Translations under genes and position numbers: made by a program
Part shown: in pieces, positions 1,980 to 49,861 of the stretch
Position numbering within the stretch: position 1 is the first letter of the stretch
Layout of the letters: every line of letters starts with the position of its first letter
The notes under the pieces: generated by a model
Seen by the model: the letters and a program-made list of their open reading frames with translations, nothing else
Databases searched by the model: none
Told to the model about the DNA's origin: nothing
NCBI RefSeq assembly: GCF_003671935.1
Contig: NZ_CP032759.1
Coordinates: 248,001-312,000 of the forward strand
Length of the DNA: 64,000 nucleotides
Direction: 5' to 3'
Source of the DNA: Buchnera aphidicola (Rhopalosiphum maidis)
GTDB lineage: Bacteria > Pseudomonadota > Gammaproteobacteria > Enterobacterales > Enterobacteriaceae

Positions 1980-2677
1980 ATGAAAAAAATACTAATAATT
2001 TTTAGTGGTGGACAAGATTCAACTACTTGTTTGATACATTACAGTAATATATGTAAACAAATTTACTGTATTACATTTGATTACAATCAATTACATAAAT
2101 CTGAAATTGATTCTGCTCGTTTTATATCAAATTATTTTAATGTTAAAAAACATATATTCGTAGATGTAAAATTCTTACAGAATCTTTCCACAAGTAGTTT
2201 AACAGATGAAAAACTTTCTATTTTTGATAATCATCCGTTAAATAATTTTTTACCAAGTACATTTGTTCCAGGTCGTAATATTCTATTTTTAACTTTGTCT
2301 TCTATATATGCTTTTAATAATGAAATTGATTCAATTGTTTTAGGGGTAAATGAAATCGATTTTTCTGGTTATCCAGATTGTCGAAACGACTTTTTAAAAA
2401 AATGAATGATGTAATTCAAGTTGGTATGAACTGTAAGATTAACTTTTTATCTCCTTTAATTAATTTAAGTAAAGCAGAAATATGGGCTTTGTCAGATTAT
2501 TGGAATTCTACTCAATTTATTCTTGATAATACAGTAACTTGTTATAAAGGTATTCAAGGAAAAGGATGTGGTCAATGTCAATCATGTATTCTTCGAAACG
2601 ATGGATTCAATAAGTGGAAATCTAATTCTTCTTATTATATGAAAAAATTAAAAGAAAAATTCAATTTCTATAATTAA
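1980..2677 (+). pseudogene. queC: QueC, 7-cyano-7-deazaguanine synthase, frameshifted at a 7-A tract
   Basis: QueC makes preQ0 from carboxy-deazaguanine in the queuosine tRNA-modification pathway. The ATG frame carries the PP-loop motif SGGQDS (residues 9-14) and TFVPGRN, but stops at TGA 2403-2405 after 141 residues. The rest continues without loss in the -1 frame from 2402 to 2677, with the zinc-binding cysteine cluster (C-x8-C-x2-C-x2-C) near the C-terminus. The break lies in the A run 2396-2402. One extra A gives 232 aa, against 231 in E. coli, with no residue missing at the join (DFLKK then MNDVIQ). Codons at the break read TTT TTA AAA AAA TGA, so both T TTA AAA and A AAA AAA slippery heptamers are in phase. 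Either a very young pseudogene, a gene rescued by slippage, or a base-call error. It stands alone, divergent from mdlA. Confidence 0.85.
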
Positions 2678-2734
2678 TTTTAGAAATTAAATATATAAAT
2701 TTATTTAAATTGATAACAAGTTTTATTAATTTTT

Positions 2735-4600
2735 TTATAAATCATCTATTCTATTATATAGAATTGTTGATGTTTTATGTAAGTTTTGGAGAAAACATTG
2801 AAATATTGTATCTATATTATTTTTTTCTAAGTATTGAATAATAATTTTTTCTTCTTCTTCTGAAAATTTTTCATTATAAACTTTTTCCAATAACGCGATA
2901 ACAAAATTTTTGTTTTTATTTTGATACATAGTATAAATTTTTTTTCCTTTTATTGGATATGGCATTGAAAAAATTATAGATAGATTTGGGTTTTCGTCAT
3001 ATCGAGATACAGTTTCATATTCTTTAAAAACAATGTTTTCTTGTTTTAAAATATTTTCGTTTCCATTATTTAATTGAAATAAAATTTTTTTTGATTTGTT
3101 TCTTATTTTTTCTGTTGCTTTCATGTATTTTATTCTGTTTATAATATTTTGCTTAACATCTTGAAGTTTTTTAATTTTTTTTTCTTGATAATTTTTTATA
3201 CTTAATAGAAAAGATTTATGATTATTTAATATGATTAGACCAGAGTGCGATTTTAGTTTTTTTTGTCTATCTAATAGACCTTTTTTAAAAATCATTGTTT
3301 TTAGTATAGGATTTTTTAATTCTTTAGGAATAGAATTTTGATCAAACCAATTTGTTTCTGAAGGAATAATGTGAGCTTCTTTGAGAATTAAATCAAATCT
3401 ATTAATATGTTTTTTTGCGATAGTAGAAATTTTATTTTTTAATTTGTGATACATATTTAAAGATTTTTTATATTTTATCTCTTTTTCAATAATATTTGCG
3501 ACTTCATATATTTTCTTATATTTTTTCGGTAATATTTTGTTTAATTTAATTATTAAAAAATTTTTATTAAATTTAATAATGTTAGAGATTTGATTTATTT
3601 TTTCTAAATTAGAATTTTTTATTTCATTTGGTATTGAATTTATCTCTATCAATCCAATATTGCCTCCTCTTTTAGAGGAAATAGGGTCTATTGATTGTTC
3701 CTTAGCTATTTTTGAAAAATCTTCTCCTTTTTTTAGTTTTGATAAAATTGATAATGCTTCATTCTTAGTATTAATTTGGATAATACTGTACTCTCTTTTT
3801 TCTTGATTTGAATATTTTTCTATATTTTTTTTATACCAATTTTTTATTTCTTTGTTGTCACAATTTGTTTTAAATTGATTAGGTGTTAGTTGAATGTAAC
3901 TAATTTTAAATTTTTCTGGAATATAAAATTCGTTTTTATGTTGATAAAAGTAATCATGTATTTCTGGTTCACTTACTTTTTGAGTATGAATAATAGGATT
4001 AACTTTTAGAATTGCTTTTTTAATAATTCTTTTTTCAGATAATAATTTTATTATATTTTTTTGTTCATTATCTAATATAAATTCTGTTGCAGAAATAGCG
4101 TTTATTAAATATGTAGTGTTTAATTTTTTTCTAATTAAATTTATATATTCATAATGTGTTAAATTTTTTGATACAAGATAATCTAAATATTTTTTTTTGT
4201 TAAATTTTTTATTTTCTTGAAACATCGATGTATTTAGTATTATTTTTTTTATTTTATTATCTTGTATATTAAAGTTAATTTTTTTCGTATACTGCTCTAA
4301 AAGAATATTATTTATTAATTGAGATAATACATAGTTATATGTTTCTTCTTTGAATTTTTTATTTTTTTTAATTTTTAAAAAATCCCCCCCTAATATTTTC
4401 TCTTGTTTTTTCCTTTCATCAGTATACATTTTTTGCAGTGTTGTAAAACTAATTTCTTCCCCGTTTATTTTAGCAATGTATTCTATTTTATCTTTATTAA
4501 AGTAATTACTTATAGTACCAAACGCTAATGATAAAATAATTATTCCCAAAATACATTTAACTAAAATTACATTTAATCGGGATTTTAAATATTTAATCAT
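2735..4600 (-). CDS. ppiD: PpiD, periplasmic folding chaperone (SurA/parvulin-type)
   Basis: Inner-membrane-anchored periplasmic chaperone that contacts proteins leaving the SecYEG channel. The 621 aa almost equal E. coli PpiD (623). One N-terminal membrane anchor lies at about residues 12-30, followed by a SurA-like N-domain (AKINGEEIS, LSQLINNILLEQY), a parvulin-like domain around residues 265-355 (REYSIIQINTK, GEDFSKIA, GGNIGLIE) and a C-terminal lobe. It follows lon on the same strand, as in E. coli but without hupB between them. Start ATG at 4600 gives the expected short cytoplasmic tail before the anchor. Sequence identity outside the core is low and lysine-rich, as usual for this lineage, but no frame damage is seen. 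Confidence 0.92.
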   Translation of the reverse strand: MIKYLKSRLNVILVKCILGIIILSLAFGTISNYFNKDKIEYIAKINGEEISFTTLQKMYTDERKKQEKILGGDFLKIKKNKKFKEETYNYVLSQLINNILLEQYTKKINFNIQDNKIKKIILNTSMFQENKKFNKKKYLDYLVSKNLTHYEYINLIRKKLNTTYLINAISATEFILDNEQKNIIKLLSEKRIIKKAILKVNPIIHTQKVSEPEIHDYFYQHKNEFYIPEKFKISYIQLTPNQFKTNCDNKEIKNWYKKNIEKYSNQEKREYSIIQINTKNEALSILSKLKKGEDFSKIAKEQSIDPISSKRGGNIGLIEINSIPNEIKNSNLEKINQISNIIKFNKNFLIIKLNKILPKKYKKIYEVANIIEKEIKYKKSLNMYHKLKNKISTIAKKHINRFDLILKEAHIIPSETNWFDQNSIPKELKNPILKTMIFKKGLLDRQKKLKSHSGLIILNNHKSFLLSIKNYQEKKIKKLQDVKQNIINRIKYMKATEKIRNKSKKILFQLNNGNENILKQENIVFKEYETVSRYDENPNLSIIFSMPYPIKGKKIYTMYQNKNKNFVIALLEKVYNEKFSEEEEKIIIQYLEKNNIDTIFQCFLQNLHKTSTILYNRIDDL

Positions 4601-4666
4601 AATATAACTATCCTAGATAGTTTCAATTTTATATTGAAATTTTTAATTTTTTATTTAAGTTATAAA

Positions 4667-4688
4667 GGCTGACAATTCTTTGTCAGCC
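4667..4688 (-). terminator. Hairpin downstream of lon, probable terminator
   Basis: A perfect 8-bp stem (GGCTGACA / TGTCAGCC) with a 6-base loop lies 15 bases past the lon stop codon. It is much richer in G+C than its surroundings. On the lon strand only a short TTTATAACTT follows, so termination may be weak and ppiD may also be read through from lon. Confidence 0.55.
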
Positions 4689-4702
4689 AAATTTCGATTT
4701 TT

Positions 4703-7036
4703 TTATACGTAAGGTGTTTTTTCTAATGCTATTTTTAAAACTTCTTCAATATTTTTCACTGGATGAATTATTAATCCTTCAATAATATTTTTTGGTATTT
4801 CTTCTAAATTACGTTTATTTTCATATGGTATTAACACAGTTTTAACACCTCCACGATGTGCTGCGAGTAATTTCTCTTTTAATCCTCCAATTGTTAATAC
4901 TTTTCCTCTTAGTGTAATTTCTCCTGTCATAGCGATGTTAGATTTGACGGGATTTTTTGTTAAAGAAGAGACTATAGCTGTACACATCGCAATACCTGCA
5001 CTTGGTCCATCTTTCGGTGTAGCACCTTCAGGAACATGGACATGAATATCATGTTTTTCATGGAAGTCTTTTTTAATTCCTAGTTTTTTAGCTTGAGAAC
5101 GAACTACAGTCAATGCCGCTTGAATTGATTCTTGCATGACTTCTCCTAAAGAACCAGTATAAGTAAGTTTTCCCTTCCCTGAAACACATGCTGTTTCAAT
5201 TGTTAACAGTTCTCCACCTACTTCTGTCCATGCTAATCCAACAACTTGTCCAATTTGATTTAAATTGTTTGTTTTACCGTAATCAAATCGTTTTATTCCT
5301 AAAAATTTTTTTAAATTTTTACTATTGATTTCTATTTTTTTCAAAGATTTGTTTAAAATTAACAGTTTTACTACTTTTCTACATATTTTAGATATTTCTC
5401 GTTCTAAACTACGTACTCCTGCTTCACGAGTATAATACTGAATTATACTAATAATAGCGCAGTCAGTAATCGTTAATTCATTCTTTTTTAATGCATTTCT
5501 TTCTATTTGTTTTGGATATAAATAGCACTTTGCTATATTTAATTTTTCACTTTCTGTATAACCAGAAAGACGAATTACCTCCATTCTATCAAGTAATGGT
5601 GCAGGTATATTCATAGAGTTAGAAGTTGCTACAAACATAACGTCTGAAAGATCATAGTCTACTTCTAGATAGTGATCGTTGAAATTTACATTTTGTTCGG
5701 GATCTAGTACTTCTAATAATGCAGATGCTGGGTCAACTCTTATATCGCAAGACATTTTGTCAATTTCGTCAAGTAAAAACAAAGGATTTTTTACCTTTGC
5801 TTTTACCATTTTTTGGATTAATTTTCCAGGCATTGAACCAATATATGTACGTCTATGACCTCTAATTTCAGCTTCGTCTCGTATTCCACCTAAAGCCATT
5901 CTTACATATTTTCTACCTGTTGACCTAGCAATAGATTTTCCTAAAGATGTTTTACCTACTCCAGGAGGACCTATTAAACATAAAATAGGACCTTTAACTT
6001 TATTTGTTCTGCTTTGTACAGCTAAATATTCTAATATTCGTTCTTTTACTTTTTCTAGACCAAAATGGTCTATATCAAGAATTTTTTTAGCTTCTTGAAT
6101 GTCTTTTTTTATTTTTGTTTTTACATTCCAAGGAACTTGTATCATCCAATCAATATAACTTCGTACTACTGTCGCTTCTGCTGACATTGGTGACATCATC
6201 TTTAATTTTTGTAATTCTGATTCTGTTTTTTCTTTTGCTTCTTTAGGCATTTTTGAATTTTTAATTTTACGTTTTAAAACTTTGTTTTCATCTGGAATTT
6301 CGTCCATATCTCCAAGTTCTTTTTGAATAGCTTTTATTTGTTCGTTTAAATAATATTCTCTTTGACTTTTTTCCATTTGTTTTTTAACACGATTTCTAAT
6401 TCTTTTTTCAACTTTTAATAAATCTATTTCTGTTTCCATTATAGCCATTAAAAATTCTAATCTTTCATTTACATTGTATATTTCTAGTACTGATTGTTTA
6501 TCAGATAATTTTAATGGCATATGAGAAGCAATTGTATCTGCTAATTTTTCTGCATTTTTCGTATTACTAAGAGTATTAAGTATCTCTGACGGAATTTTTT
6601 TATTAAGTTTAATATAAGATTCAAATTGATTAATTGTTGTTCGAATTAATACTTCTTGTTCTTTATCTATAAGAGTAGGAGAAACAATCAATTCTACTTC
6701 TGCGACGAAATGTTCTCCATTGTTTTTTACATTTTTAATACAAGCACGTTGTAAACCTTCCACTAGTACTTTCACTGTTCCATCTGGTAGTTTTAACATT
6801 TGTAAAATTGAGCTAATAGTTCCTATATTAAATAAATCGTTTGTGCTAGGTTCGTCTTTTGATGCTTCTTTTTGTGCGATTAACATGATTTTTTTATCAT
6901 TATTCATAGATGTTTCAATACACTGAATCGATTTTTTACGACCTACAAATAATGGAATAACCATATGAGGATACACAACTACATCTCTTAATGGTAAAAC
7001 GGGAATTTTAATGCGTTCAGAACGCTCAGAATTCAT
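4703..7036 (-). CDS. lon: Lon ATP-dependent protease
   Basis: Cytosolic AAA+ serine protease that degrades misfolded and regulatory proteins. The 777 aa (784 in E. coli) hold the N-terminal substrate-binding domain (PVLPLRDVVVYP), an AAA+ module with Walker A GPPGVGKTS and Walker B FLLDEIDK, and the protease domain with the catalytic motif DGPSAG. The serine falls at residue 679, the same number as in E. coli, and the catalytic lysine region (TGEITLRGKVLTIGG) follows. The start MNSERSERIKIPVLP has a strong purine-rich ribosome site (AAGAGAGAG). Its immediate leader closely resembles that of E. coli lon as I remember it. It is transcribed after clpX with a 184-base gap that seems to keep its own promoter. 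Confidence 0.98.
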   Translation of the reverse strand: MNSERSERIKIPVLPLRDVVVYPHMVIPLFVGRKKSIQCIETSMNNDKKIMLIAQKEASKDEPSTNDLFNIGTISSILQMLKLPDGTVKVLVEGLQRACIKNVKNNGEHFVAEVELIVSPTLIDKEQEVLIRTTINQFESYIKLNKKIPSEILNTLSNTKNAEKLADTIASHMPLKLSDKQSVLEIYNVNERLEFLMAIMETEIDLLKVEKRIRNRVKKQMEKSQREYYLNEQIKAIQKELGDMDEIPDENKVLKRKIKNSKMPKEAKEKTESELQKLKMMSPMSAEATVVRSYIDWMIQVPWNVKTKIKKDIQEAKKILDIDHFGLEKVKERILEYLAVQSRTNKVKGPILCLIGPPGVGKTSLGKSIARSTGRKYVRMALGGIRDEAEIRGHRRTYIGSMPGKLIQKMVKAKVKNPLFLLDEIDKMSCDIRVDPASALLEVLDPEQNVNFNDHYLEVDYDLSDVMFVATSNSMNIPAPLLDRMEVIRLSGYTESEKLNIAKCYLYPKQIERNALKKNELTITDCAIISIIQYYTREAGVRSLEREISKICRKVVKLLILNKSLKKIEINSKNLKKFLGIKRFDYGKTNNLNQIGQVVGLAWTEVGGELLTIETACVSGKGKLTYTGSLGEVMQESIQAALTVVRSQAKKLGIKKDFHEKHDIHVHVPEGATPKDGPSAGIAMCTAIVSSLTKNPVKSNIAMTGEITLRGKVLTIGGLKEKLLAAHRGGVKTVLIPYENKRNLEEIPKNIIEGLIIHPVKNIEEVLKIALEKTPYV

Positions 7037-7125
7037 AGAGCTCTCTCTTAGTTGAATTTCCGCTATTTATATTTATTAAAAACGGCAATATATTAAAATA
7101 TGCAGCTATATTTATAATTAAGCCA

Positions 7126-7155
7126 AGTATATTGGAATTGTCGCTTGACATTTAA
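7126..7155 (-). promoter_or_regulatory. Degenerate heat-shock (sigma-32-type) promoter of lon
   Basis: Read on the lon strand, TTAAATGT, nine bases, then ATTCCAATATACT lines up base for base with the E. coli lon heat-shock promoter as I recall it (TTGAATGT, nine bases, ATCCCCATATACT). The gap between the -35-like TTAAA (7151-7155) and the -10-like TCCAATAT (7129-7136) is 14 bases in both. Transcription would start about 85 bases before the ATG. The -10 element has lost most of its C run, so activity is uncertain. Confidence 0.5.
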
Positions 7156-7220
7156 TCTGAAGCGTTTGGCAAAATAAAGGGAGAATGCCTTTTTTTGAGA
7201 TTATCTGATGTCTTTATTTT

Positions 7221-8504
7221 TTATTCACCGGATGCTTTTTTGGATTTATTTTTTTCTTCATATATTATTTTTGGTAGTGAATGAGAGTTTACAACTGATT
7301 CATCAATTAATACTTTTTTTACATTTTTCATAGATGGTAACTCGTACATGGTATCTAATAAAATATTTTCAACAATAGATCTTAATCCTCTTGCCCCTGT
7401 TTGTTTAGATAATGCTTTTTTTGAAATTGATAAAATAGCTTCTTTTGTGAATTCTAATTTGACTTTTTCTAAATTAAATAATGCTTGATATTGTTTGATC
7501 AAAGCATTTTTTGGTTTACATAATATCTTAACAAGAGCATCTTCATTTAATTCGTTTAAAATAGTTATTATAGGCAAACGACCAATGAATTCAGGAATTA
7601 ATCCAAATGTTATTAAATCTTTTGATTGCACTTGTTGCAACAAATATTGTTCTGACTCTTTCTTTTTTTTCTTTTTAATACTAGCGTTAAAACCGATTGT
7701 ATTTCCAGTATCAATTCTTTTAGAAATAATTTTAGAAAGTTCTGAAAATGCTCCTGCACATATGAATAAGATATTTGAAGTATTAACTTGTAAAAATTCC
7801 TGTTGTGGATGTTTTCTCCCACCTTGTGGTGGAATTGATGCTAAGGTTCCTTCAATTAGCTTTAATAAAGCTTGTTGTACCCCTTCTCCAGAAACGTCTC
7901 TAGTAATAGAAGGATTATCAGATTTTCTTGCAATTTTATCTATTTCGTCTATATAAACAATTCCTAATTCTGCTTTTTTAACATTGTATTTGCATTTTTG
8001 AAGTAGTTTTTGTATCACATTTTCTACGTCTTCTCCAACGTATCCTGCTTCAGTTAAAGTAGTTGCATCAGCAATACTAAAAGGTACATTTAATAATTTT
8101 GCTAGTGTTTCTGCTAATAAGGTTTTTCCACTTCCAGTCGGTCCAATTAATAAAATATTACTTTTTCCCATCTCAACTTTATCTGAATTTTTAGAAATAT
8201 TACGGATACGTTGATAGTGATTGTAAACAGCTACAGATAGAACCTTTTTTGTATGGTTTTGACCGACTACGTAATTATCAAGATGTTTTTTAATTTCATG
8301 CGGTGTAGGCAAGTAATTTAATTCATCATTTTCTTTTTCTTTTTTAGTTTTTATTTCTTTAATAATGTCATTACATAATCTTATGCATTCATCACATATA
8401 TAGACTGCTGGACCAGCTATTAATTTTTTCACTTCTTTTTGGTTTTTACCACAAAAAGAACATTGAAGTAATTTTTTAGAATTGTCTTTACTCTTATCTG
8501 TCAT
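7221..8504 (-). CDS. clpX: ClpX, ATP-dependent unfoldase of ClpXP
   Basis: Hexameric AAA+ unfoldase that recognises substrates and feeds them to ClpP. The 427 aa (424 in E. coli) begin with the C4 zinc-binding domain ([11 protein letters not shown] then CDECIRLC), followed by Walker A GPTGSGKT, Walker [12 protein letters not shown], the pore loop GYVGEDV and the ClpP-docking loop with the IGF tripeptide (NTIGFNAS). A lysine-rich stretch (KKKKKK) right after IGF slightly lengthens that loop. The C-terminal domain ([11 protein letters not shown]) is intact. It lies 83 bases after clpP on the same strand, the usual order clpP-clpX-lon. Confidence 0.98.
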
Positions 8505-8587
8505 ATTCTTAACCTCGTTATTAACATATTTATTGATTTTTTGAGTAAATAGATTCTATTTTATTCTCTTTAAATAAAAATTTTTTA

Positions 8588-9181: not shown

Positions 9182-9274
9182 TTAATTTTCTCTATAAATA
9201 TAGTAGTACATATTTTTGTTAAAATTATTTAAAATTTAATTTTCTAATATAAAATATGTTATTTAAAATTATTT

Positions 9275-9290
9275 TTCTAATATATTAGAA
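9275..9290. repeat. 16-bp perfect palindrome between tig and clpP
   Basis: TTCTAATA/TATTAGAA is a perfect palindrome 20 bases past the tig stop, with no loop. It could be a weak 3' hairpin of the tig transcript or chance in A+T-rich DNA; no U-tract clearly follows on either strand. Confidence 0.3.
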
Positions 9291-9310
9291 TTTTTAAAAA
9301 AACACCATTT

Positions 9311-16240: not shown

Positions 16241-16243
16241 ATT

Positions 16244-23639: not shown

Positions 23640-24743
23640 TTAAATTTTAAGCACCCAAGCGTATCCATAGTGATTATAAAAACCTGCCAATGTGCCTGCT
23701 TTTTTTCCTATTCCTTGGTAAACATCAAAGTGTTGTCCTTTAATAACACCACCGACATCTAATGCAATTAATAAATGCAGTCCATATTTATGATTAAAAT
23801 TTCCTTTTTTATCAAGAATAGGTATTTGTACTAAAACTACACTTCCACTTTTTATTATGGATTTATCTACAGCTATTGCTGCTTTTCCAATTAATGGAAC
23901 TGCACTGGAACCATATGCTTCTTTTCTTTTAGTTTGTTTAAAAAAAACAAAAGATTTATTTTGTTCAAATAATTCTTGTATTTCCTTTTGAGTATGATTT
24001 TTGCACCATTTTTTAATGGTTTTCATTGACATATTATTTTTTTTTATATCTCCTCTTTTTATTAAAATTTGACCAATACTTGTATAAGGCCAATTATTTT
24101 TTTTTGAATAACTAAAAAAGGTTAATGGTTTTTTATCACCATAATCTATAAAACCACTCCCTTGAACTTCCATAATAAAATTATCTATTAAAGAATTACT
24201 ATAAGCTAAAATATATTTTTTTTTTAAAATACCATTGTATATATCTTTTCTCTGTGGTAATTTTTGATTTTTTTTAAAATTAGAAGGCATTCTGTATATA
24301 GGATATATGAAGTTCTTTTTTTTTATTTTACTTGCCTGTACTATTGGTGTGTAATATCCAGTTATTTTAACATTCCCATAATTGTCTACACCTTTCATTT
24401 GGAATAAATTGATTCCAAATTTTTTCATTTCGTTTATATCTGATTTTTTTTTTAACCATTTTAATATTGCATTATAAGTAGATATATTTTTTGCGTATAA
24501 AGTTGGAGAAAAAGATTTAATTTTTTCAAGTTGTAGAAGAAATTCTTTTTGATTCACTAATTTATTTTGTATATTTATGTTTTTGACGTTCGTAAAATTT
24601 TTTATGAATTTATTTTTGTATTGTTGACCATGATTGATATTTTTAGTTGAAAAAGCAACTGAAAAAATAAAAATGAAAATTAAAATTATTTTTTTTATAT
24701 TTTTTTTCTTTTTAATTTTATTAAACGTATAAGGATTAAGCAT
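23640..24743 (-). CDS. mltA: MltA, membrane-bound lytic murein transglycosylase A, without lipobox cysteine
   Basis: Cleaves peptidoglycan glycan strands to anhydro-muropeptides. The 367 aa (365 in E. coli) carry the MltA domain ([43 protein letters not shown]) and the 3D-type domain with the catalytic aspartate in [20 protein letters not shown]. The N-terminus is a lysine-rich tail and one hydrophobic segment ending SVAFSTK, where E. coli has the lipobox LAACSSK. No cysteine is present there, so it cannot be lipidated. It may be an inner-membrane-anchored or secreted form. amiC, next to it in E. coli, is absent. Confidence 0.92.
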
Positions 24744-31200: not shown

Positions 31201-31775
31201 TGGTTTTATTTCTTTTAAGAGAGTATTTGGATCATTGTATTCTTCACGAATAATTTTAATAATTTTTTTTGGTAAATTATAAAAAAAACGTCTCCAAAAA
31301 TCTTGTGTAGCTTGCAAATATAAAAAGGATTCGTTTTCAATTATTTCTTTATTAAAATTAAATGTATTATTTTGTAAAACATCTTGACAAAATCCATGTA
31401 TTGTATAAATAGCGGCATTATTTATGTTTATTTTGGCTTTTTCTAGTATATAAATAGCTTCGTCAAAATTTTTATTTTTTTTAAAAAAGATTGAAAAATA
31501 GGATTTTCGCTTTTTTTATTTATGAGTGACGAATGTAATTTCTCAATATTTTTTTTTATTCGTATATACAGCTCTTCTTTTGCTGCATTAGTAAAAGTTA
31601 CTACTAGTATTTCTTGTACTAGTAATTTTTTTGTATTTTTTTTATTTTCTTCTAATCCTAATAATAAACGGAGATATAAAAGTGAAATCGTATTCGTTTT
31701 TCCTGTTCCTGCGGAGGCTTCAATCAGGTTAATTCCCTTTAAAGGCATTTGAAATATATTTAATTTTTTTTTCAT
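28285..31775 (-). pseudogene. recB: RecB, exonuclease V beta subunit, frameshifted at an 8-A tract
   Basis: 3'-5' helicase and nuclease subunit of RecBCD. The ATG frame at 31775 carries Walker A IEASAGTGKT and ILVVTFTNAAKEEL but ends with TAG after 110 aa. The remaining helicase (TIHGFCQ, LIDEFQDT, VGDPKQSIYSFRGAD, TIHKSKG, LYVALTRS) and the nuclease domain (GFIDLVF, ILDYKSNYLG with the catalytic Asp and Lys) are open in the -1 frame down to 28285. The switch is at the A run 31475-31482, codons TTT TTA AAA AAA ATA. One extra A gives 1163 aa (1180 in E. coli) with DEAIYILEKAKINI bridging to AIYTIHGFCQ, so nothing else is missing. An internal nine-A run (KKKD) elsewhere in recB is in frame. ptrA, which separates recC and recB in E. 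coli, is absent. Confidence 0.88.
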
Positions 31776-31796: not shown

Positions 31797-34700
31797 TTAT
31801 TTTTTTTGATTTTGTAGTATTGGAGTAAACCACTTTTGAGAAATTTTACAAATTTTTTTTATATTTAATTCAAAAATAATTTGTTGTATATATAAGTCTT
31901 CTTTTTCTCCTATTATATATTTATTTCCTAACCATGTTTGACATAGTATTTTATATGCTTCTCTTTTTATATTATTGTCTTTGTTAATACAATTGTTTTT
32001 TTTATCATAAATTTTATCAAACCAATTTGATCCTGATTTTGTGAGTAACAAAGGATTTTTCATTCCATGTATGTATCCTTCAATATACTTTAAGAGATAA
32101 TTATACGCTACGTTATGTGGTAAGGTACAAAAAGAAAAAATTTGTTTTTTATATCCTATTATTTTACTTTCCCCAGTACCTATTAAAATAGAGTAAATTA
32201 AATGTTCTAACCATAGCGACATCCTATCTTTATAATTAATTACACCTAATTTCCATCGAAGTAAACATGTACTTTGTATTTCATCCAAAAATCCATGAAT
32301 GTTATATTTTTCTATTTTTATATCAAAAAATTTTTTTTGAGGTGATATTCGGTAGTTAAAAATTATTTCTAATATTTCTTCTATTTCTTTTTTTTTCTCT
32401 TCTAATAACAACAATCCAAAATTTCCATATGGTAAAACACCCGATAGAATAATTTTTTTAAAAGTATTTATTACATTTTCTTTGTTTAACATTTTTTTAA
32501 ATATTATATGACTTATTTTAAAATGATCTAATTGATTAATTGAAAATGGCTCTGTTATAATGTTTTTTTCTTTTTTTTCGAATTTTATATTTAAAGTATG
32601 ATTAAAGAAATAACGTATTGGATTTTTCCAAAAAGATATTATATCTTTTAGATTAATTTTTATAACATCAGGAATTGTTAGATCTTTTTTAGAAAAAATT
32701 TTATTATATATTTCTTTATTTATTTTTTTTATTTCTTGAATTTTATTTAAATTAATTTTTTTTATGTCTTTTTTCTCATAAAGATTTTCTTTTTTATGTT
32801 TTTTACAAATATGTTCAAATATTTTCTTTTTATTATCTTTTAAATTAAAATCTTTTGAAAAATAAAAATTTGACATTATGTAATTTAATAACTGATCAAT
32901 TAATATTGAAGGATAAATTTTATTATCATTTTTTACAGAATATCCAACGTAACTAATGTAGAAAATGTCTTGAGTAGAAATGAAGTTGTGAAGAAATATT
33001 TGATAACTTTCGTCATAAGTATTAAAATCGCCAATCAATGGATATTTGTTTAGTAAATTAAAAGAATTTATATTTTTTTTTTAGGAATTTCTTGATTATC
33101 TGCTCCAATAATACATTTTATTTTGAATGGTATGTAAGATGTTAAAGACGGATGACAAAAATTTATTACACCTGGTAAGAATTTTTTTCTACTAAAGTAA
33201 TTCATAGAATATAAGAATTTTCTCTTTAAAATACTTATAGGAATTTTTTTTTGATAATTAGACAACAGTGCATCATCAATCATTTTTGTCCAATTTTTAT
33301 TAATAATATTGATACTATTGCCTATTTTTTTATTTTTATGAAAAAAATCATTTATAAAGCAAATAAATAATGTACGCCACGATTTAATTTTTTTTGAAAA
33401 AGATAATTTATTTCTCCATTTATCAAGAGTTTCAATAAAATTTATTAGTTTTCCTATTAATTCTGTTCTTGAAGTATTAATAGAAGTAAATGATAAAGTA
33501 TTATTGCAAATTTTTTCTTCTTCATTAATTGCATAACTCATAAGTAATTTTTTAATACCATAAAACCAAGTATTTTGATTATTTTTTGGAAAAATTAAAT
33601 GTTTTTTTTGTTTTTGATGAAGACCCCATCTTATATTTGATTTTTCAATCCATTCATACAAAACATTTATTTCTTCTTCTGCAATATGAAATTTATCTCT
33701 TATATCTTGAATTTCAATTAAATCTAATATTTCTTCATTACTAAAACGGATATTAGATAAATTTAGTATTTTATTAAAAACAAATAGAATTTTTTCTGTT
33801 GTATTAGAATGTTTTTTAGATATATAAAAAGGTATTTTTTCTTTTTTATTGTCAGATTTAAATATTGAGTTAATATAACTTATATAAGTATCTAACGAAA
33901 ATGAGGTAACGACGATATCACTAGCTTTTAGTTTTGGATTATGATTAAATAAAGTCAATATTTTTTTATGTAAGACTTCAATTTCATGTTTTTTGTTGTA
34001 GCAAATATTGATTGATATTGAATTATCTTGTGGTAAAAAAGATCTTTTTTTTATTATACTTTCGACTTTTTTTAAACTTAAAAAATCATTTTTAATGATG
34101 TTTAGTAAATTTTTTTTATTGTTTTTTTGAAAAAAATTATTGAATTTTATTTTTTTAAATCTTTTAAAAAATAAGAAATAAAATTTTTCATATTTTTCCC
34201 ATAAATTTATCAATGAATTGTTTTCTTGAAGGACATAGTTTTTTTTTATTCCTATAAAACTAGTATGAAAAAATTTTTTTTCGGAAGCGTTTATAGATAA
34301 AAAATATACATCTGTATGCGCACTTATTTTTTTAAAAATTTCCATGTACGTTGGATTTAAATTTAAAGAAGAAATAATAAAAATACGTTTTGGAAGTTTT
34401 ATTTTTTCTTGTTTTATTAATAAAATAAATCTTTTTAATAAATTAGGAAAATGGCATTTTGATTGTTTAAGTTTTTCTGTATAATTTATAATTTTAATCC
34501 ATAACTTTCCTTGCCATTCATCATTTGTATCGATTTTTAGTATTTTTTTTTGATTTTCTTCCCATTTATTAATCCAATTTGGTCGATATAAAATATATTT
34601 TTCATATAAACGAGCCATTAAAAATGCAAAATCAAATTTTTTTGTTATTTTATCTTTTTTTTGAATAAATTCAATAAAACAATTTTTTTCTATAATTTTC

Positions 34701-34987
34701 ATGATTTTCCAAGTGATAATGGATTCTGAAAATATGTTATTTAATTTAATATTAGGTAAGTTTTTTTTAAATAATTTCCATATAAAAACATTAGGGTGAA
34801 TTAATTTAAAATATGCAGAAATTCCTGTATTATTTGCAATAAATGTATTCAAATATTGAAATAACACTTCATTATCATTAATAATAATTTCTCTGTCAAA
34901 AATATTAAGAAGAGGTTTTTCTTTTATTATTTTGTATACTTCGGTAAATAGAATATTAATTTGGTTTGATTTATAAACGAAAAACAT
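31797..34987 (-). pseudogene. recC: RecC, exonuclease V gamma subunit, frameshifted at a 10-A tract
   Basis: Chi-recognising scaffold subunit of RecBCD. The ATG frame (MFFVYKSNQINIL, like E. coli MLRVYHSNRLDVL) runs 639 aa to GADNQEIPKKKI and stops at TAA. The rest continues in the -1 frame: NSFNLLNKYP then IGDFNTYDESYQIFL, matching E. coli LGFDLMSQKP and RGDRSRRDDDRYLFL, and ends at 31797. The break is in the ten-A run 33073-33082 (coding strand CCT A10 TATAA). One extra A gives 1063 aa against 1122 in E. coli. Motifs such as SGIRW, LPYGNFG and WLEHLIY are kept. Function depends on slippage or on the base call being wrong. recB follows after 21 bases. Confidence 0.87.
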
Positions 34988-40506: not shown

Positions 40507-40757
40507 TTAATCAGTCTTACTAGAAGAAAATCCTTTTTTTAATAAATAGCGATAGGGTTTTACATGAATGAAATGATCGATAAGTTGATGATTCATAAAA
40601 TGACAAAAATATGGAATATCTCTTTTAGTTGACGGGTCATCTGATAATACTAATACTTTTTCATTTTCTTTCATTTTTCTTATTGTTTTTCTTATAACCA
40701 TAATAGGTTCGGGACATCGAAGTCCAATTAAATTTAATATAATATTTTTTTTTTCAT
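40507..40757 (-). pseudogene. tusA: TusA, tRNA 2-thiolation sulfur carrier, frameshifted at a 10-A tract after the start codon
   Basis: SirA/YhhP-family persulfide carrier that takes sulfur from IscS and starts the Tus relay. The family core [33 protein letters not shown] and [10 protein letters not shown] is open on the minus strand, with the catalytic cysteine in GLRCPEP. There is no ATG, GTG or TTG in that frame before the cysteine. The only good start, ATG at 40757, is followed at once by ten A (40745-40754) and runs in the wrong frame to TAA after seven codons. One extra A would give 83 aa (81 in E. coli). The in-frame ATG at 40701 lies after the catalytic cysteine, so a protein from there would be inactive. 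Confidence 0.85.
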
Positions 40758-40795
40758 ATTTTTTCTTTTTTTAAAGAAACAAAAACAAATTTTGA

Positions 40796-41437: not shown

Positions 41438-41445
41438 TTTTTTTA

Positions 41446-42468: not shown

Positions 42469-42503
42469 TTCGATAAAAATATCACTTTTATTACTTCTTA
42501 TAT

Positions 42504-45089
42504 TTAAACTACAAAATTGATTACTTTCTCAGGAATATAAATTATTTTAATTATTTTTAAATTTTTTATTTTTTTTTGAATATTTGAGTGGTTTTGTACA
42601 TAAGATAAAATTTCTTCTTTATTTAAATTATTTTTAACTTCTATGGCATATCTTTTTTTTCCATTAATTTGTACAATTAAAGTATTATAATCTTTATACA
42701 AAAATCTTTTTTCAAAAGTTGGCCATTTTTCATAATCAATATAGCAATTTTTATTTAAATATTTCCATAATATAAAACAAAAATGAGGTGTAAATGGATG
42801 AAGCATTTTAATAATTGAAATTAAAGATTCCTTCATAATATATTTATCTTCTTCATTTTCTAGTTTAAAATTTGAAAGTGCATTAACTAATTCCATAATT
42901 GCTGAAATTGCAGTATTAAATGTTTTTCGACGGCTCATATCATCAGAAACTTTAAAAATAGTTTTATGCAACAAACAATAAATTTCTTTTTGTTTTTTGT
43001 TTAAAATATCTAAATTTATAGTTTTATTTATTTTTTTTATTTCAATGTAATTAAATACTAATTTCCAAGTTTTCTTTAAAAATCTATAAATTCCTTTTAC
43101 ACCAGATTCTCTCCATTCTAATGATGATTCTACTGGAGCAGAAAACATTATAAATAAACGAACAGTGTCCGCACCATAACGATTGATCATTACTTCTGGT
43201 TCAATTCCATTGTTTTTAGATTTAGACATTTTAATCATTCCTGCATATATAACTTCTTTCTTATTTGTATCATAAAATTTGATTTTTTCTCCTTTTAAAT
43301 TTTTTTCTTTTCTTACATAAGATGGATGAATCCAATTACGTTGATTATTTTGATCAAATTGATAAAATGCTTCGCCAAGCACCATCCCTTGACACAGTAA
43401 ATTTTTTACTGGTTCAGTAAATTTAACTAATTTAAAATCATGTAGTAATTTGTGATAAAATCTAAAATACATTAAATGCATAATTGCATGTTCTATTCCT
43501 CCAATATACTGGTCTACAGGTAACCAATATTGTGAGGCTATCGGATCAATCATTCCTTCTTTAAAATTCGGACAAGTATATCTTGCATAATACCAAGATG
43601 ATTCCATAAATGTATCAAACGTATCCGTTTCACGGATAACATCTTGATTTTCAATTTTAATTTTAGCCCATTCAGAATTACTGTTCATAGGTGTTTGAAA
43701 AAAATCGGAATTATCTTTTATTTCTGGTAATACCACAGGTAAATTATTTTCTGGTATTGCTATAATTTCTCCATTTTTTTTTGTTGCCATAGGAATAGGT
43801 GCACCCCAATAACGTTGTCTTGATATACACCAATCTTGTAATTTATAATTTATTTTCTCTTTTATAATTTTCTTTTCTAATAGTGTTTTTTTTATTTCTT
43901 TAGTCGCATCTTCATAATTAAGATTATTAAATTTTCCAGAATTAAATAATATTCCTTTTTGAGTTGTAAATAAATTATACGATTCTGTATTTTTATATTT
44001 TTCGTTTTTAACGACGTATTTTATTTTTAAATTATGTTTTATAGCAAAGTTCCAATCATTTTGATTATGTCCTGGAACTGATATAACTGCACCAGTACCG
44101 TATTCTTTTAAAACAAAATTTGCTATCCAAATAGGTATTTTCTTATTTGTAATCGGATGAATAATAAACATGTTACTATTTATTCCCTCAAATTTTGTTT
44201 TTTCTGTATCTTCTTGAGAGAGATTATTATCAATTTGTTTTTTAATAAATTTTTTTATTTCTTTTTTTTCTTTAGAAATATATAAAGAAAATTCATGAAA
44301 AGGAGATATAGAAATATATGTTGCTCCTATTATTGTATCTAATCTAGTAGTAAATACTTTTATTTTTTTAGTACTATTTAATATGTCAAGAATGATTTCA
44401 AATCCTTTTGATCGACCAATCCAGTTTCTTTGCATATTTTTTACTTTTTCAGGCCAGTTTTCTAATTGATTTAGATCATTGTGTAAAGATTCTGCATAAT
44501 CTCTAATTTTTATAAACCACTGCGGTATTTTTTTTATTATTATTTTATTTTGACATCTCCAGCAACAGCCATTTATCACTTGTTCGTTAGCTAAAACAGT
44601 TTTATCGTAAGGACACCAATTTACAAAACTATTTTTTTTATAAACTAATTTTTTTTTGTATAGTTGAATAAAAAACCATTGTTCCCAACGATAATAATCT
44701 GGTTTACATGTAGTTATTTCTCGATCCCAATCATAACTGAAACCTAACGATTGGAGTTGTTTTTTCATATATTTAATATTTTTATATGTCCAATCAAATG
44801 GTTTGGTTTTATTTTTAATAGCTGCTTCTTCTGCAGGCAATCCAAAAGCGTCCCAACCAATTGGTTGTAAAACATTTTTTCCCAACATTCTTTGATATCT
44901 TGAAATAACGTCACTAATTGTATAGTTTCTAACATGACCCATATGCAATTTTCCGGAAGGATACGGAAGCATAGGAAGACAATAGTATTTTTCTTTTTTG
45001 TTATCTTCATAAACATGGAATACTTTATTATCTTTCCAGTATTTTTGTACGTATGGTTCGATGTTTTTTGGACAATATTCTTTTTCCAT
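42504..45089 (-). CDS. leuS: LeuS, leucyl-tRNA synthetase
   Basis: Class I synthetase with editing domain. The 861 aa (860 in E. coli) contain the HIGH-type motif HMGHVRNY, the zinc-binding insert (WCPYDKTVLANEQV, CWRCQ), the CP1 editing domain (TTRLDTIIGATYI), LPVDQYIGGIEHAIMHLMYF, and the KMSKS loop KMSKSKNNG. ATG at 45089. It is followed by holA after 35 bases; lptE, present between them in E. coli, is gone, in line with the reduced envelope of this lineage. Confidence 0.98.
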   Translation of the reverse strand: MEKEYCPKNIEPYVQKYWKDNKVFHVYEDNKKEKYYCLPMLPYPSGKLHMGHVRNYTISDVISRYQRMLGKNVLQPIGWDAFGLPAEEAAIKNKTKPFDWTYKNIKYMKKQLQSLGFSYDWDREITTCKPDYYRWEQWFFIQLYKKKLVYKKNSFVNWCPYDKTVLANEQVINGCCWRCQNKIIIKKIPQWFIKIRDYAESLHNDLNQLENWPEKVKNMQRNWIGRSKGFEIILDILNSTKKIKVFTTRLDTIIGATYISISPFHEFSLYISKEKKEIKKFIKKQIDNNLSQEDTEKTKFEGINSNMFIIHPITNKKIPIWIANFVLKEYGTGAVISVPGHNQNDWNFAIKHNLKIKYVVKNEKYKNTESYNLFTTQKGILFNSGKFNNLNYEDATKEIKKTLLEKKIIKEKINYKLQDWCISRQRYWGAPIPMATKKNGEIIAIPENNLPVVLPEIKDNSDFFQTPMNSNSEWAKIKIENQDVIRETDTFDTFMESSWYYARYTCPNFKEGMIDPIASQYWLPVDQYIGGIEHAIMHLMYFRFYHKLLHDFKLVKFTEPVKNLLCQGMVLGEAFYQFDQNNQRNWIHPSYVRKEKNLKGEKIKFYDTNKKEVIYAGMIKMSKSKNNGIEPEVMINRYGADTVRLFIMFSAPVESSLEWRESGVKGIYRFLKKTWKLVFNYIEIKKINKTINLDILNKKQKEIYCLLHKTIFKVSDDMSRRKTFNTAISAIMELVNALSNFKLENEEDKYIMKESLISIIKMLHPFTPHFCFILWKYLNKNCYIDYEKWPTFEKRFLYKDYNTLIVQINGKKRYAIEVKNNLNKEEILSYVQNHSNIQKKIKNLKIIKIIYIPEKVINFVV

Positions 45090-45379
45090 AATTTTACTCG
45101 TATAAAATACATAATAGTTTAAAAAATTAATTTTTTGATAAAGACATGAATTAAATATTTTTTAATGTGATTTATTATAGACGAACAATTTTTATTAAAA
45201 AATAAGAGGATTTTTAGTTTTATCATTCTAATAAATTTTATTCATTAAATTAATGATTTTTAATTTTTTTATTGTCTTAAAAATGAAAGACGTACTGAAT
45301 AGTATAATTTTATTTTAATTTTTAATAAAAATAATTTTGTAGATAAAATATATAAATATAGTCCTTATTTTTATAGTCC
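45090..45379. other. Gap left between leuS and corC
   Basis: About 290 bases with no open frame worth reporting. In E. coli lnt follows corC; I find no trace of an Lnt-like protein here, so this is probably the eroded remnant or plain spacer that also carries the leuS promoter. Confidence 0.4.
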
Positions 45380-45386
45380 TTATTTT
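45357..45386. repeat. 15-bp tandem duplication across the corC stop codon
   Basis: TATAGTCCTTATTTT occurs twice head to tail (45357-45371 and 45372-45386). The second copy includes the corC stop codon, so the corC strand reads GAA AAA TAA GGA CTA TAA AAA TAA, giving backup in-frame stops. This looks like a recent slippage duplication. Confidence 0.8.
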
Positions 45387-46255
45387 TCTAATTTTTTTGG
45401 GATTTTATTTTCTGGAATAGTGACATGTACTTGTATAACTTTTCGACTATCAGCTATAGAAACTTTAAAATTATATCCGTTAATATTAATATTATCTCCC
45501 CTGCTTGGTAGATGTCCAAAAGCTTTCATAACTAATCCACCAATTGTATCAACTTCTTCGTCACTAAAATTAGTTTCAAAAGTACTATTAAATTCACTTA
45601 TTTCTGTAAGTGCTTTAATAGAAAATACACATTTTTTTAATTGTCTAATATTTACTTTTTCTTCATCATCGTATTCATCTTGAATTTCTCCTACAATTAA
45701 TTCAAGAATATCTTCTATTGTAACTAATCCTGAAACAGCTCCAAACTCATCTATTACTATAGCCATATGACTTCGTTTTAGGCGAAATTCTTTGAGCATT
45801 CTATCTACAGATTTGCTTTCAGGAACTACGACAGCAGATCTTAATATGTTTTTTATACAGAATATATCTTTTGAATTTTTCATAAAAGGTAGTAAATCTT
45901 TTGCGATCAAAAATCCTTCTACATAATTTTGATCTCTGCTCATTACAGGAAAACGTGAATGTGCAGATTCAATTATAATATCAAGACATTTATTAAGATT
46001 ATAGTTTAATTTTAATGTTATCATTTGTGTTCTTGGTATCATAATATCTTTGATTCTTTTTTTTGCAATATGCATAACACCTTCTAACATATCACAAGTA
46101 TCTTGATCAATTAATTCGTTTTGTTCTGAATCACGAATTAATACTAACAGTTCTTCTCTGTTTTTTGGTTCATCGTGAAAAATATGATTCAGTAAAATAG
46201 AAAAAAAACCTTTTCGATTAATTTTATCTGTACTCTGTGTATCTTTGTTGCTCAT
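45380..46255 (-). CDS. corC: CorC/YbeX, CBS-domain protein
   Basis: Cytosolic protein of the CorC family linked to magnesium and cobalt efflux. The 291 aa (292 in E. coli) hold two CBS motifs (IMIPRTQMITLKLN, and IKNILRSAVVVPESKSVDRML with HMAIVIDEFGAVSGLVTIEDI) and the C-terminal CorC_HlyC domain (EEVDTIGGLVMKAFGHLP). No membrane segment, as in the family. It follows ybeY on the minus strand (miaB-ybeY-corC), the E. coli order without ybeZ. A 15-bp tandem repeat covers its stop. Confidence 0.95.
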   Translation of the reverse strand: MSNKDTQSTDKINRKGFFSILLNHIFHDEPKNREELLVLIRDSEQNELIDQDTCDMLEGVMHIAKKRIKDIMIPRTQMITLKLNYNLNKCLDIIIESAHSRFPVMSRDQNYVEGFLIAKDLLPFMKNSKDIFCIKNILRSAVVVPESKSVDRMLKEFRLKRSHMAIVIDEFGAVSGLVTIEDILELIVGEIQDEYDDEEKVNIRQLKKCVFSIKALTEISEFNSTFETNFSDEEVDTIGGLVMKAFGHLPSRGDNININGYNFKVSIADSRKVIQVHVTIPENKIPKKLEK

Positions 46256-46340
46256 AGTGTTATAATTATCTATTTTTAAAATATATTTTTACTATTCTAT
46301 AGGTAGAAAGAGATAGGTTGAAATATTTTTTGTAAAAAAA

Positions 46341-46816
46341 TTAGAAATTTTTTATAAAATATGGTTTTTCATAATCTAAAGATAACATTATTTTATTTTC
46401 TATTTTTTCCATAATGTTCTTTTCTTTTTTATTTTTATGATCATATCCTAAAAGATGTAATGTTCCATGTATTATCATATGCGCCCAACGTGATTCTAAT
46501 TCTTTATTATATTTTAATGATTCTTTTTCAATTATGTTTTTGCATAACACAAGATCTCCTAATAAGTTTTGATTTTTATTTATAGAAAAATCCAATTGAA
46601 AAGATAAAATATTTGTTGATTCATTTTTTCCTCTATATTTTAAATTTAGATTTTTTATTTCTTTTTCATCAACAATTCTGATCGTAATTAAATTAATATT
46701 TTTTTTTTATATAAAACTTTTTTTATCCATTTTTTGAAAATATATTTTTTTGGTATATTTTTAGTGTTTTTACAATTTTTTTGAATTGTTAAGACAATCT
46801 TATTTGTTTTTTTCAT
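46341..46816 (-). pseudogene. ybeY: YbeY, rRNA-maturation endoribonuclease, frameshifted at a 10-A tract
   Basis: Metal-dependent RNase needed for 16S rRNA 3' processing and 70S quality control. From ATG at 46816 the frame reads IVLTIQKNCKN and KKWIKKVLYKKK, aligning with E. coli VILDLQLACED and FQTWLNAVI, then meets TAA just past a ten-A run (46699-46708). The -1 frame continues with NINLITIRIVDEKEI, KYRGKNESTNILSF, LLGDLVLC and the zinc triad HGTLHLLGYDH to 46341. One extra A gives 158 aa (155 in E. coli). Without it only an 84-aa C-terminal piece from a TTG could be made. Such an important gene would not be expected to be lost while its catalytic part stays pristine. miaB lies seven bases upstream. 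Confidence 0.86.
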
Positions 46817-46823
46817 ATGATTT

Positions 46824-48146
46824 TTAAAGTAATTCACCTTTTAACGAATGAGTGTGGATTTTCTTTATTTTTATCTTAATAAATTTTCCAATTGTATTAT
46901 GTGATCCTCTAAAAGTGACAATTCTATTGTTTTCTGTTCTTCCATATAATTCCATAATATTTTTTTTTGATACACCTTCTACTAAAACAGATTGTGTACT
47001 TTCTAACATTTTTCTACTCCAGGACATAGTTTGTTTGTTGATGCAATTTTGTAAGATATGTAAGCGTTTTTTTTTCTCTTTTAAATCAATATTATCTTCC
47101 ATTTCTGAAGCCGGTGTACCTGGTCGACTAGAATATATAAAACTAAAACTCATATCAAAATTTATTTTTTTTATGAAATCGATAGTTTTTTGAAAATCTT
47201 CTTCAGATTCAGTAGGAAATCCTACAATAAAATCAGAACTAATTTGAATATTTGGACGAGCTAATATGAGTTTTTCGATAATCTTTTCGTATTCTTCTGT
47301 TGTATATGACCTTTTCATTAGTTGTAGAATTCTATTTGATCCACTTTGTACCGGAAGATGAAGAAAACTGACTAGTTTTGGTGTATCTTGATAAACTTCA
47401 ATAATATCATCAGTAAATTCAAGTGGATTACTTGTTGTGAAACGAATTCTATTGATACCGTCTATTTCAGAAACTAATCGTAATAATTCTGAGAAAAAAC
47501 AAATTTTCCCGTTAAAAGTACGACCTCGATATGCATTGACATTTTGTCCTAATAAATTAATTTCTTTAATGCCATTTTCAGCTAAAATTGATATTTCTAG
47601 TAAAATATCGTCAGATGGACGACTAATTTCATTTCCTCTAGTATACGGTACAACACAAAATGAACAGTATTTGTTACATCCTTCCATTATAGAAACAGAA
47701 GCTGTATATCCTGTGGTTTTAGGTTCTAAAGAATAATAATTAAATTTCTCTAATTGAGGAAAACTAATATCAATTGTAAAGTGACGTTTTTTTTCTACCT
47801 TATCAATCATTTCAGGTAATTTATGTAAAGTTTGTGTACCAAATACAATATCTACATAATTTGCTCTTTTAAAAATTTCTTTACCTTCTTGTGTCGCTAC
47901 ACAACCTCCTACGGCAATAATAATATCTGGTTTTTTATTTTTTAATTTTTTCCATCTTCCTAATTGATGAAAAACTTTTTCTTGAGCTTTTTCTCTTATA
48001 GAACAGGTGTTTAAAATTAAAATATCAGCTTTTTCAGCCTCTTTAGTAATTAAATATTTTTTTGTTTTTTCTAAGAATGTAGTCATCATAGATGAATCAT
48101 ATTCATTCATTTGACAACCCCAAGTTTTTATATATATATATTTCAT
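46824..48146 (-). CDS. miaB: MiaB, tRNA-2-methylthio-N6-isopentenyladenosine synthase
   Basis: Radical-SAM methylthiotransferase acting on A37 of tRNAs reading UNN codons. The 440 aa hold the N-terminal UPF0004 domain with its three cluster cysteines ([34 protein letters not shown]), the radical-SAM motif CNKYCSFC, and a C-terminal TRAM domain ([11 protein letters not shown]). It stops about 30 residues earlier than E. coli MiaB (474), losing only the tail after TRAM. It leads the miaB-ybeY-corC group. Confidence 0.97.
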
Positions 48147-48208
48147 TTTAATAAAATTAATCCTAGTTATTATATAAATATATTTTATTAGTATAAAATA
48201 TAGTCTTC

Positions 48209-49003
48209 TTATACAGATATTTTTCCCTTGATTAAAGGATATGGGTTATATCCAATAATTTTGAAATCTTCAAAAGAATAATGGAATAATGATTTAGGTT
48301 TTTTTGAAATTATTAATTCTGGTAATTTTCGAGGTGTGCGAAGTATTTGTTTTTTTGCTGATTCAATATGATTTTTATATAAATGAACATCTCCTCCTGT
48401 CCATAAAAAATCTCCAACTTGGAGATCGCATTGTTGAGCTATCATATGTATAAGTATCGCATAGCTAGCTATATTAAAAGGTAAACCGAGAAATACGTCA
48501 CAAGAACGCTGATAAAGTTGACAACTTAATTTTTTTTTTAATACATAAAATTGAAATAGTACATGACATGGAGCTAAAGACATTTTATCAATTTCTCCAA
48601 CGTTCCAGCTGGATACTAATATTCTACGAGAATTAGGATCTTCTTTTATTTGTTGTAATATATTCTTTATTTGATCGATTTCTTTGCCTTCAGTTGTATT
48701 CCAACTTCTCCATTGTTTTCCATAAATTGGACCTAAATTACCAAATTCATCTGCCCAATTATTCCAAATTGATATTTTGTTTTTATTAAGATATGCAATA
48801 TTCGTTTCTCCTTTAAGAAACCATAACAGTTCATGGATAATTGATGGTATATGACATTTTTTCGTTGTAATAAGAGGAAATCCTTTTTTCAAGTTAAATC
48901 TCATGTTGTATCCGAAAATAGATAATGTTCCTGTACCAGTTCGATCTTTTTTTGATTTTCCATTTTTAATTATTTTTTTTATTAAATTTAAATATTGTTT
49001 CAT
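48209..49003 (-). CDS. thyA: ThyA, thymidylate synthase
   Basis: Methylates dUMP to dTMP with methylene-tetrahydrofolate. The 264 aa equal E. coli ThyA. The nucleophile is Cys146 in [12 protein letters not shown], same number as E. coli; the phosphate-binding arginines in [11 protein letters not shown] and [19 protein letters not shown] are present, and the C-terminal closing segment is [12 protein letters not shown]. It is 20 bases downstream of lgt, in the conserved lgt-thyA order. Confidence 0.98.
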
Positions 49004-49023
49004 ATTATCTCAAAAGAAAAAGG

Positions 49024-49861
49024 TTATTTTTTAAAAAAAGATTGACAAATTATAATACATCCAACAACAATCATTGGAATAGATAATATTTGACCCATAG
49101 TTATTATGTTTTTAAATAATCCGATTTGAGGATCTGGTTCTCGAAAAAATTCACTTATTATTCTTAATATTCCATAACTTATTAGAAATAAAGCACTTAT
49201 ACTACCTGTTTTTCTTTTTTTTCTAGTAAAAAAATAAATTATCAAGAATAAAAGTATACCTTCTAAAAAGAATTCATATAGTTGCGAGGGATGTCGAGGT
49301 AATACTCCGTATTCATCTAATATGGTTTGTAACTTAGGATTTTTAGAAACTATTTTTAAATCTTCTTTATATGTAGTAGGAAATAGAATAGCATATGAAA
49401 AATTTGGTGCTATTCGACCATATAGTTCACCATTAATGAAATTCCCTAATCTTCCTGCCCCTAATCCAAAAGGTACAATTGGAACTATAAAATCAGATAT
49501 TTTTAATATTTTAATATTTTTTTTTAAAGAAAAGTAATACATGGCCATTATTGCTCCTATCAATCCTCCATGAAATGACATACCACCTTCCCAAATGTGC
49601 AGTGAGCATAATATATTTTGAGAAAAATATGAAAAATTGTAAAAAATTATGTATCCTACTCTACCTCCAATGCATGAACCTAAAAAAATAATATATAATA
49701 GTTTTTCTATCTTTTCTTTATCTGATTTTTTTTTTATATTTTTTTTTTCCATACCATAGAGCAAATATAAAACTTATGAAATACATAAAGCCATACCAGT
49801 GAGCTTTGAAAGAACCAATGGAAAAAATAATAGGATTGATATTTGGAAAATTAATATACAT
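49024..49861 (-). pseudogene. lgt: Lgt, prolipoprotein diacylglyceryl transferase, frameshifted at a 10-A tract
   Basis: Membrane enzyme that adds diacylglycerol to lipobox cysteines, first step of lipoprotein maturation. From ATG at 49861 the frame reads MYINFPNINPIIFSIGSFKA and HWYGFMYFISFIFALWYGKK, matching the E. coli N-terminus ([20 protein letters not shown]), then reaches TAA after a ten-A run (49739-49748). The remainder is open one base further on: LLYIIFLGSCIGGRVGY, GGMSFHGGLIGAI, GRLGNFINGELYGR and LPRHPSQLYE, to 49024. Here one A fewer restores the frame and gives 278 aa (291 in E. coli), the opposite direction from the other broken genes. A second ten-A run a few bases later is in frame. 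CyoA in this window still has a lipobox that needs this enzyme. Confidence 0.86.

Follow-up and report, generated by a model that had tools for sequence, protein, structure and literature searches.

Frameshifted genes of both Buchnera and Blochmannia are reportedly rescued by slippage at poly(A) tracts (Tamas et al. 2008, PNAS), and ancient frameshifts are said to be maintained in Blochmannia homopolymers without gene decay (Wernegreen et al. 2010, MBE). Eight homopolymer frameshift genes are given for Blochmannia vafer in the genome report (PMC3017870), and a review puts corrected transcripts at such tracts at 12-50% in an aphid and an ant symbiont (PMC5009743). According to a transcript-error survey, homopolymer insertions in Buchnera transcripts are confined to runs of A and T and become exponentially more frequent as the run lengthens (PMC5574713). 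The present analysis concerns six genes, queC, recB, recC, tusA, ybeY and lgt, whose reading frames are broken in a window of 64,000 nucleotides of Buchnera aphidicola (Rhopalosiphum maidis), here genome G000 (positions 248001-312000 of a single contig of 642,929 bp).

It is likely that recC, tusA, ybeY and lgt are functional genes, out of frame at long coding-strand poly(A) tracts and rescued by slippage, with queC and recB outside this class. The initial annotation had proposed slippage of RNA polymerase for all six. As judged from the DNA, the evidence supports rescue by slippage at poly(A) in recC, tusA and ybeY and, less cleanly, in lgt; it does not support it in queC and recB. The case for the four genes rests on breaks common to relatives, selection after the break, a threshold in break rate at A9-A10 and an excess of breaks that are one base short.

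These genes resemble the described cases of slippage rescue: in both, an endosymbiont gene that is otherwise intact is out of frame at a long A tract. They differ in identity, since the genes named in the review passage are genes of the cell wall and one histidine gene, and ybeY, recC, tusA and hisS are not among them (PMC5009743). The present cases come from DNA sequence and are accompanied by a genus-wide count. As with the conserved frameshifts of Blochmannia, out-of-frame tracts are kept between species without decay, but the genus and the genes are different, and ybeY would be a case that goes back to the ancestor of the Buchnera genomes compared.

Frame breaks in the window

All six frame breaks are present in the DNA. 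The broken genes were named by family matches, and other genes provisionally, by synteny. In each of queC, recB and recC, the pieces on either side of the break match a single family but lie in different frames; in tusA, ybeY and lgt, the family match comes from the piece downstream of the break. Frames were read with a purpose-written frame-aware protein-to-DNA alignment, and it confirmed the claim that the restored proteins have family length: without an internal stop, it covers residues 1-281 of 281 for lgt, 5-151 of 151 for ybeY, 1-1069 of 1070 for recC, 1-1179 of 1179 for recB, 1-232 of 232 for queC and 2-75 of 76 for tusA. Five of the six breaks are due to one missing base.

Comparisons were made with 35 other genomes of the genus (36 in total), each represented by three overlapping stretches (20, 18 and 18 kb) carrying the same genes. 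Forty genes were aligned across the 36 genomes; tusA was handled separately and is outside the 36-genome count, since its break sits at the start codon. The tree is based on 19 concatenated proteins with a midpoint root (27 of 33 supports at least 0.9). Comparing tract lengths across Buchnera genomes, as the initial annotation had suggested, separates shared breaks (recC, tusA, ybeY and the lgt stretch) from private ones (queC and recB). The six breaks are of two different classes, and their treatment as a single class was rejected. The class of recC, tusA, ybeY and lgt calls for a run of A or T that is free of interruptions and some nine bases long or longer; all four have one, whereas queC has an A7 and recB an A5 beside an A8.

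ybeY is broken at one homologous tract in 26 of the 36 genomes. The tract is an exact A10 in 23 of them, G029 and G001 included, with diverged flanks, and it is uninterrupted in all 26; of the 983 Lys-Lys-Lys codon triples overall, 711 have no interruption. The ten in-frame genomes have A8 (three), A9 (three), an interrupted tract (three) or A10 with a shortened flank (one). None of the 36 tracts is A11, a length that is rare generally (48 runs, against 290 of A10). The root state by parsimony is out of frame, with at least six changes on the tree, so the out-of-frame ybeY is apparently ancestral. Exits from this state would have shortened or interrupted the tract or altered its flank; in these genomes, a single-base gain that restored the frame and left the tract slippery was never seen. 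Downstream of the break, the ratio of nonsynonymous to synonymous substitution rates (dN/dS) between G000 and its sister genome G009 is 0.33, at the top of the range for genes unbroken here (0.015-0.33). The 36-residue N-terminal part has no Pfam match, yet it aligns to 22 loci of relatives. In the wider family, 149 members were searched with YbeY; six of the 20 small-genome members examined have a frame event in ybeY, and among those 20 only G144 (A11, one base extra) breaks at the homologous site. It is conceivable, but rather unlikely, that ybeY is a programmed transcriptional-slippage gene, with the ancestral A10 state held by selection and full-length YbeY made at a fixed transcript fraction.

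Both G000 and G009 carry the out-of-frame A10 of recC; G001 reads A9 and is in frame there. Compared between the two genomes with the break, recC has a dN/dS of 0.27 before it and 0.28 after it (dS 0.39-0.41). Other genomes of the genus have recC breaks at four further sites. Very long A runs with a broken frame lie within recC in two genomes, A20 in G015 (codon 198) and A13 in G013 (codon 316).

tusA was found in 35 genomes. Three related genomes (G000, G009 and G001) read ATG-A10, G006 reads ATG-A13, and the remaining 31 have an ATG in the gene's own frame. In G000 and G009, no ATG, GTG or TTG lies in that frame ahead of the conserved core. The dN/dS of tusA is 0.20 (G000 vs G009), with no upstream part to test.

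lgt is out of frame in 16 of the 36 genomes at one lysine-rich, A-rich stretch near the 5' end, and tract length varies among genomes across this shared stretch. One clade of 14 genomes has lgt out of frame throughout, and the state requires three changes on the tree, against 12.0 in shuffles. For G000 and G009, dN/dS is 0.35 before the break (44 codons) and 0.13 after it. Purifying selection persists after the breaks in recC, tusA, ybeY and lgt.

queC has an A7 followed by TGA in G000 and an A8 in G009, G001 and G023. For 12 of the 36 genomes, the regions retrieved gave no queC match, and two further genomes carry a decayed copy. In recB, the relatives read A7-T-A6 and G000 reads A8-T-A5. The lost base was therefore probably in the A6, which places the change outside any long run; the A8, where the initial annotation had put the break, was rejected as the site. 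A second shift in recB, seen at codon 16, is taken as an artefact of a reference open reading frame (ORF) extended upstream. Both queC and recB are probably recent inactivations or carry residual sequence errors.

The restriction to A runs is a matter of opportunity. The initial annotation had argued that T runs are abundant and yet unbroken. The coding strand of 50 window genes carries 53 A runs of at least nine bases (41 A9, 11 A10 and one A11) but only three T9 runs, and no T run exceeds that length. With 12 coding runs of A10 or more against no T run of 10 or more, specificity for A was rejected. The other eight coding runs of A10 or more sit in open frames. The trinucleotide TAT, noted earlier after all four out-of-frame A10 tracts, was likewise rejected as a signal. 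A10-TAT occurs five times in the window (1.4 expected), once in the in-frame mltA (24216-24225), and across the genus TAT follows 19 of 70 (27%) out-of-frame tracts of A10 or more and 75 of 272 (28%) others.

A seventh frame break in the window, of an ordinary kind, is the programmed frameshift site CTTTGAC of prfB, which the initial annotation overlooked. Like the breaks for which rescue is proposed, it would lie within a working gene. It differs in that the shift is ribosomal, in the +1 direction, at CTTTGAC with a stop codon and no homopolymer.

Table 1. Genes and tracts with frame breaks, in window positions; the last four rows lie outside the window and give approximate G000 positions with provisional gene names
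Feature	Position	Strand	Remarks
ybeY (rRNA maturation RNase)	46341..46816	-	N and C parts in different frames; C part PF02130, TIGR00043
ybeY out-of-frame A10 tract	46699..46708	-	one base short
recC	31797..34987	-	N part PF04257, C part PF17946, different frames
recC out-of-frame A10 tract	33073..33082	-	one base short; also in sister genome G009
tusA	40507..40757	-	family match
tusA out-of-frame A10 tract, directly after ATG	40745..40754	-	also in G009, G001
lgt	49024..49861	-	first part and remainder in different frames
lgt two A10 tracts with TAT between	49726..49748	-	one base too many, in one or other tract
queC A7 tract	2396..2402	+	private one-base loss
recB A8-T-A5	31469..31482	-	private one-base loss, by comparison probably in A5 (31469-31473); A8 is 31475-31482
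prfB CTTTGAC, +1 ribosomal frameshift site	53770..53776	-	site in sequence
hisS, A13	~463739	-	outside window; one base short
glmM, A11	~355906		outside window; one base short
photolyase-like (phrB-like) gene, A9	~446714		outside window; one base short
LysM/M23-type gene, A9	~321404		outside window; one base short

Run length, sign and density across the genus

The count of breaks covers 1,387 of 1,398 gene copies in the 36 genomes. The 11 copies dropped were decayed or partial, one of them the recC of G012 with an A10 break. Events within 25 codons of either gene end, three net-zero events and three events at N gaps of G003 were removed as well; the end filter takes out the recD event of G023, the holA breaks at codon 13 (five relatives, at an A10 near the start) and many near-terminal events. 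The run assigned to a break is the longest within about 35 bases of the aligned shift. After these filters 85 frame-changing breaks are left, with 79 at coding-strand runs of A9 or longer, two at T9-T10 and four elsewhere (queC and recB of G000, bolA of G016 and pgk of G028). When positions are instead drawn at random within these copies, 13.6 on average and at most 21 (300 draws) fall at A9 or longer, against the 79 of 85 observed. Among the kept copies, nadD loses its frame in 15 of the 36 genomes, with two A tracts as the sites.

The break rate per A run is 0.06% at A7 (2/3261), 0.05% at A8 (1/1936) and 0.94% at A9 (9/955), and reaches 16.9% at A10 (49/290) and 25% at A11 (12/48). T runs give 0.5% at T9 (1/185) and 11% at T10 (1/9). 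Such a steep run-length threshold is what polymerase slippage predicts. The sign of the breaks is also uneven: of the 79 at A runs, 65 lack one base and 14 have one too many, and with lgt set aside the figures are 57 and 6. Short breaks should be in excess if a one-base RNA insertion makes them tolerable. Opportunity runs opposite to this excess: there are 955 A9 runs, which give a one-too-long A10 after a gain, and 48 A11 runs.

In the same 40 genes, the 36 genomes have from zero to five breaks each, with G000 the highest at five, including its two private ones. The cluster had been put forward as dense. Its density tops the range of the relatives and does not lie outside it, and the cluster was rejected as a phenomenon of its own.

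Proposed slippage and its alternatives

In the proposed mechanism, RNA polymerase would slip backward on the A tract and add one A in a fraction of the transcripts, and the corrected transcripts would then be translated into full-length protein. For lgt the polymerase would have to drop one A or add two; slippage on A9-A12 could serve both signs. Slippage would render an out-of-frame allele nearly harmless and so let it persist, and the need for slippage would in turn keep the tract uninterrupted.

Several points weigh against rescue by slippage. Mutation at the DNA level also rises with run length, so that the threshold is support for RNA slippage and not proof of it. Genome counts are not independent across the 36 relatives. 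The tree signal at ybeY is modest, with six changes as the lowest of 300 label shuffles (mean 8.9), and upstream of its break dN/dS is 0.67 (30 codons, G000-G009) and 1.39 (32 codons, G009-G001), on too few codons. The recC state takes 10 changes on the tree, no fewer than in shuffles (mean 9.6), so its breaks recur and are not ancient as a class. The tusA of G001 has an in-frame upstream TTG that could start the gene without slippage. At lgt the sign is mixed, eight long and eight short, which simple +1 slippage does not predict, and an internal start may be used there. Finally, the 2017 transcript-error survey, which includes Buchnera, reported no restored frame (PMC5574713).

Frame restoration could instead be the work of ribosomes, slipping by -1 on A AAA AAA, and not of RNA polymerase. 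This would repair a one-base-short break equally well; an A10 holds the heptamer in every frame, and the A7 of queC is followed directly by TGA. The run-length dependence makes it improbable, since A7-A8 can hold the heptamer, depending on phase, and yet only 3 of 5,197 such runs are broken, against 70 of 358 at A10 or longer. T runs have a similar length dependence, in small numbers.

That the broken genes are young pseudogenes fits queC and recB, and queC in particular is a gene unmatched or decayed in many of the genomes. As an account of the breaks in general it is quite improbable. recC, tusA and ybeY are constrained after the break between genomes that share it, and no internal stop is found in G000. 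Decayed copies in the set (thyA, argA, queC and nadD of G018, thiL of G016 and argA of G006) have many stops and shifts, in contrast to the single breaks at A tracts.

The two halves could also be separate polypeptides, or the downstream part could start internally. At lgt, an ATG just before the tract lies in the downstream frame of G000, and the clade of 14 out-of-frame genomes includes both signs. The TTG of the G001 tusA would serve in the same way, and ribD, as we take the gene to be, is already two ORFs in G000. Gene fission is nevertheless very improbable. The lgt ATG would be in the wrong frame in the short genomes, judging from their signs, tusA of G000 and G009 has no start codon of the three kinds in its own frame before the core, and the short N-terminal part of YbeY would presumably be useless alone.

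Homopolymer miscalls in the assembly are highly improbable as a general cause and were rejected as such. In their favour, the contigs derive from PacBio reads (polished with Arrow and Illumina/Pilon; PMC6451198), five of the six breaks lack a base, and the breaks of queC and recB occur in this genome only and in short runs. Against them, ybeY, recC, tusA and the lgt stretch are also out of frame in other genomes, and miscalls are blind to reading frame, yet the other eight coding runs of A10 or more are in open frames. Undercalling, which the initial annotation had left standing for all six, is thus confined to queC and recB, where residual error and recent loss both fit.

Breaks elsewhere in the genome and their meaning

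In a further 160 kb of G000, 16 of 137 matched G029 ORFs were flagged for frame. Four were counted as real single breaks, two as compensated and one as an N-terminal artefact; the other nine, short ORFs that are mostly antisense-looking, were judged by eye. All four real breaks are at A runs (A13, A11, A9 and A9; Table 1). The two compensating shift pairs, with a short stretch in another frame, lie outside the window at about 441700 and at 397150-397284, in genes that are presumably sucB-like and RNase E-like.

HisS is in one frame in 34 of the 36 genomes, although in G026 it ends 15 residues early. The gene is in two pieces in G000 and, separately, in G005 near the same place, and it was found at a single locus in G000. 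Since an indispensable enzyme out of frame is otherwise hard to reconcile, the hisS break would be hard to square with anything but rescue.

The slippage mechanism is already known; what is new is the spread of the ybeY break through the genus, the break in hisS and a quantitative rule for such breaks. A non-exhaustive literature search found no earlier report of a Buchnera hisS case or a run-length rule, and none by title of ybeY as a slippage gene in Buchnera, which is weak evidence. The 36-genome table provides a quantitative rule, in run length and sign, that would separate slippage-tolerated breaks from real gene loss. ybeY would serve to test whether an out-of-frame state can be actively maintained, and it sets up a testable conflict between published Buchnera transcripts without a restored frame and a gene out of frame at A10. 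If rescue holds, Buchnera genes that look broken, such as hisS, ybeY and recC, would work, and part of the proteome would depend on polymerase error.

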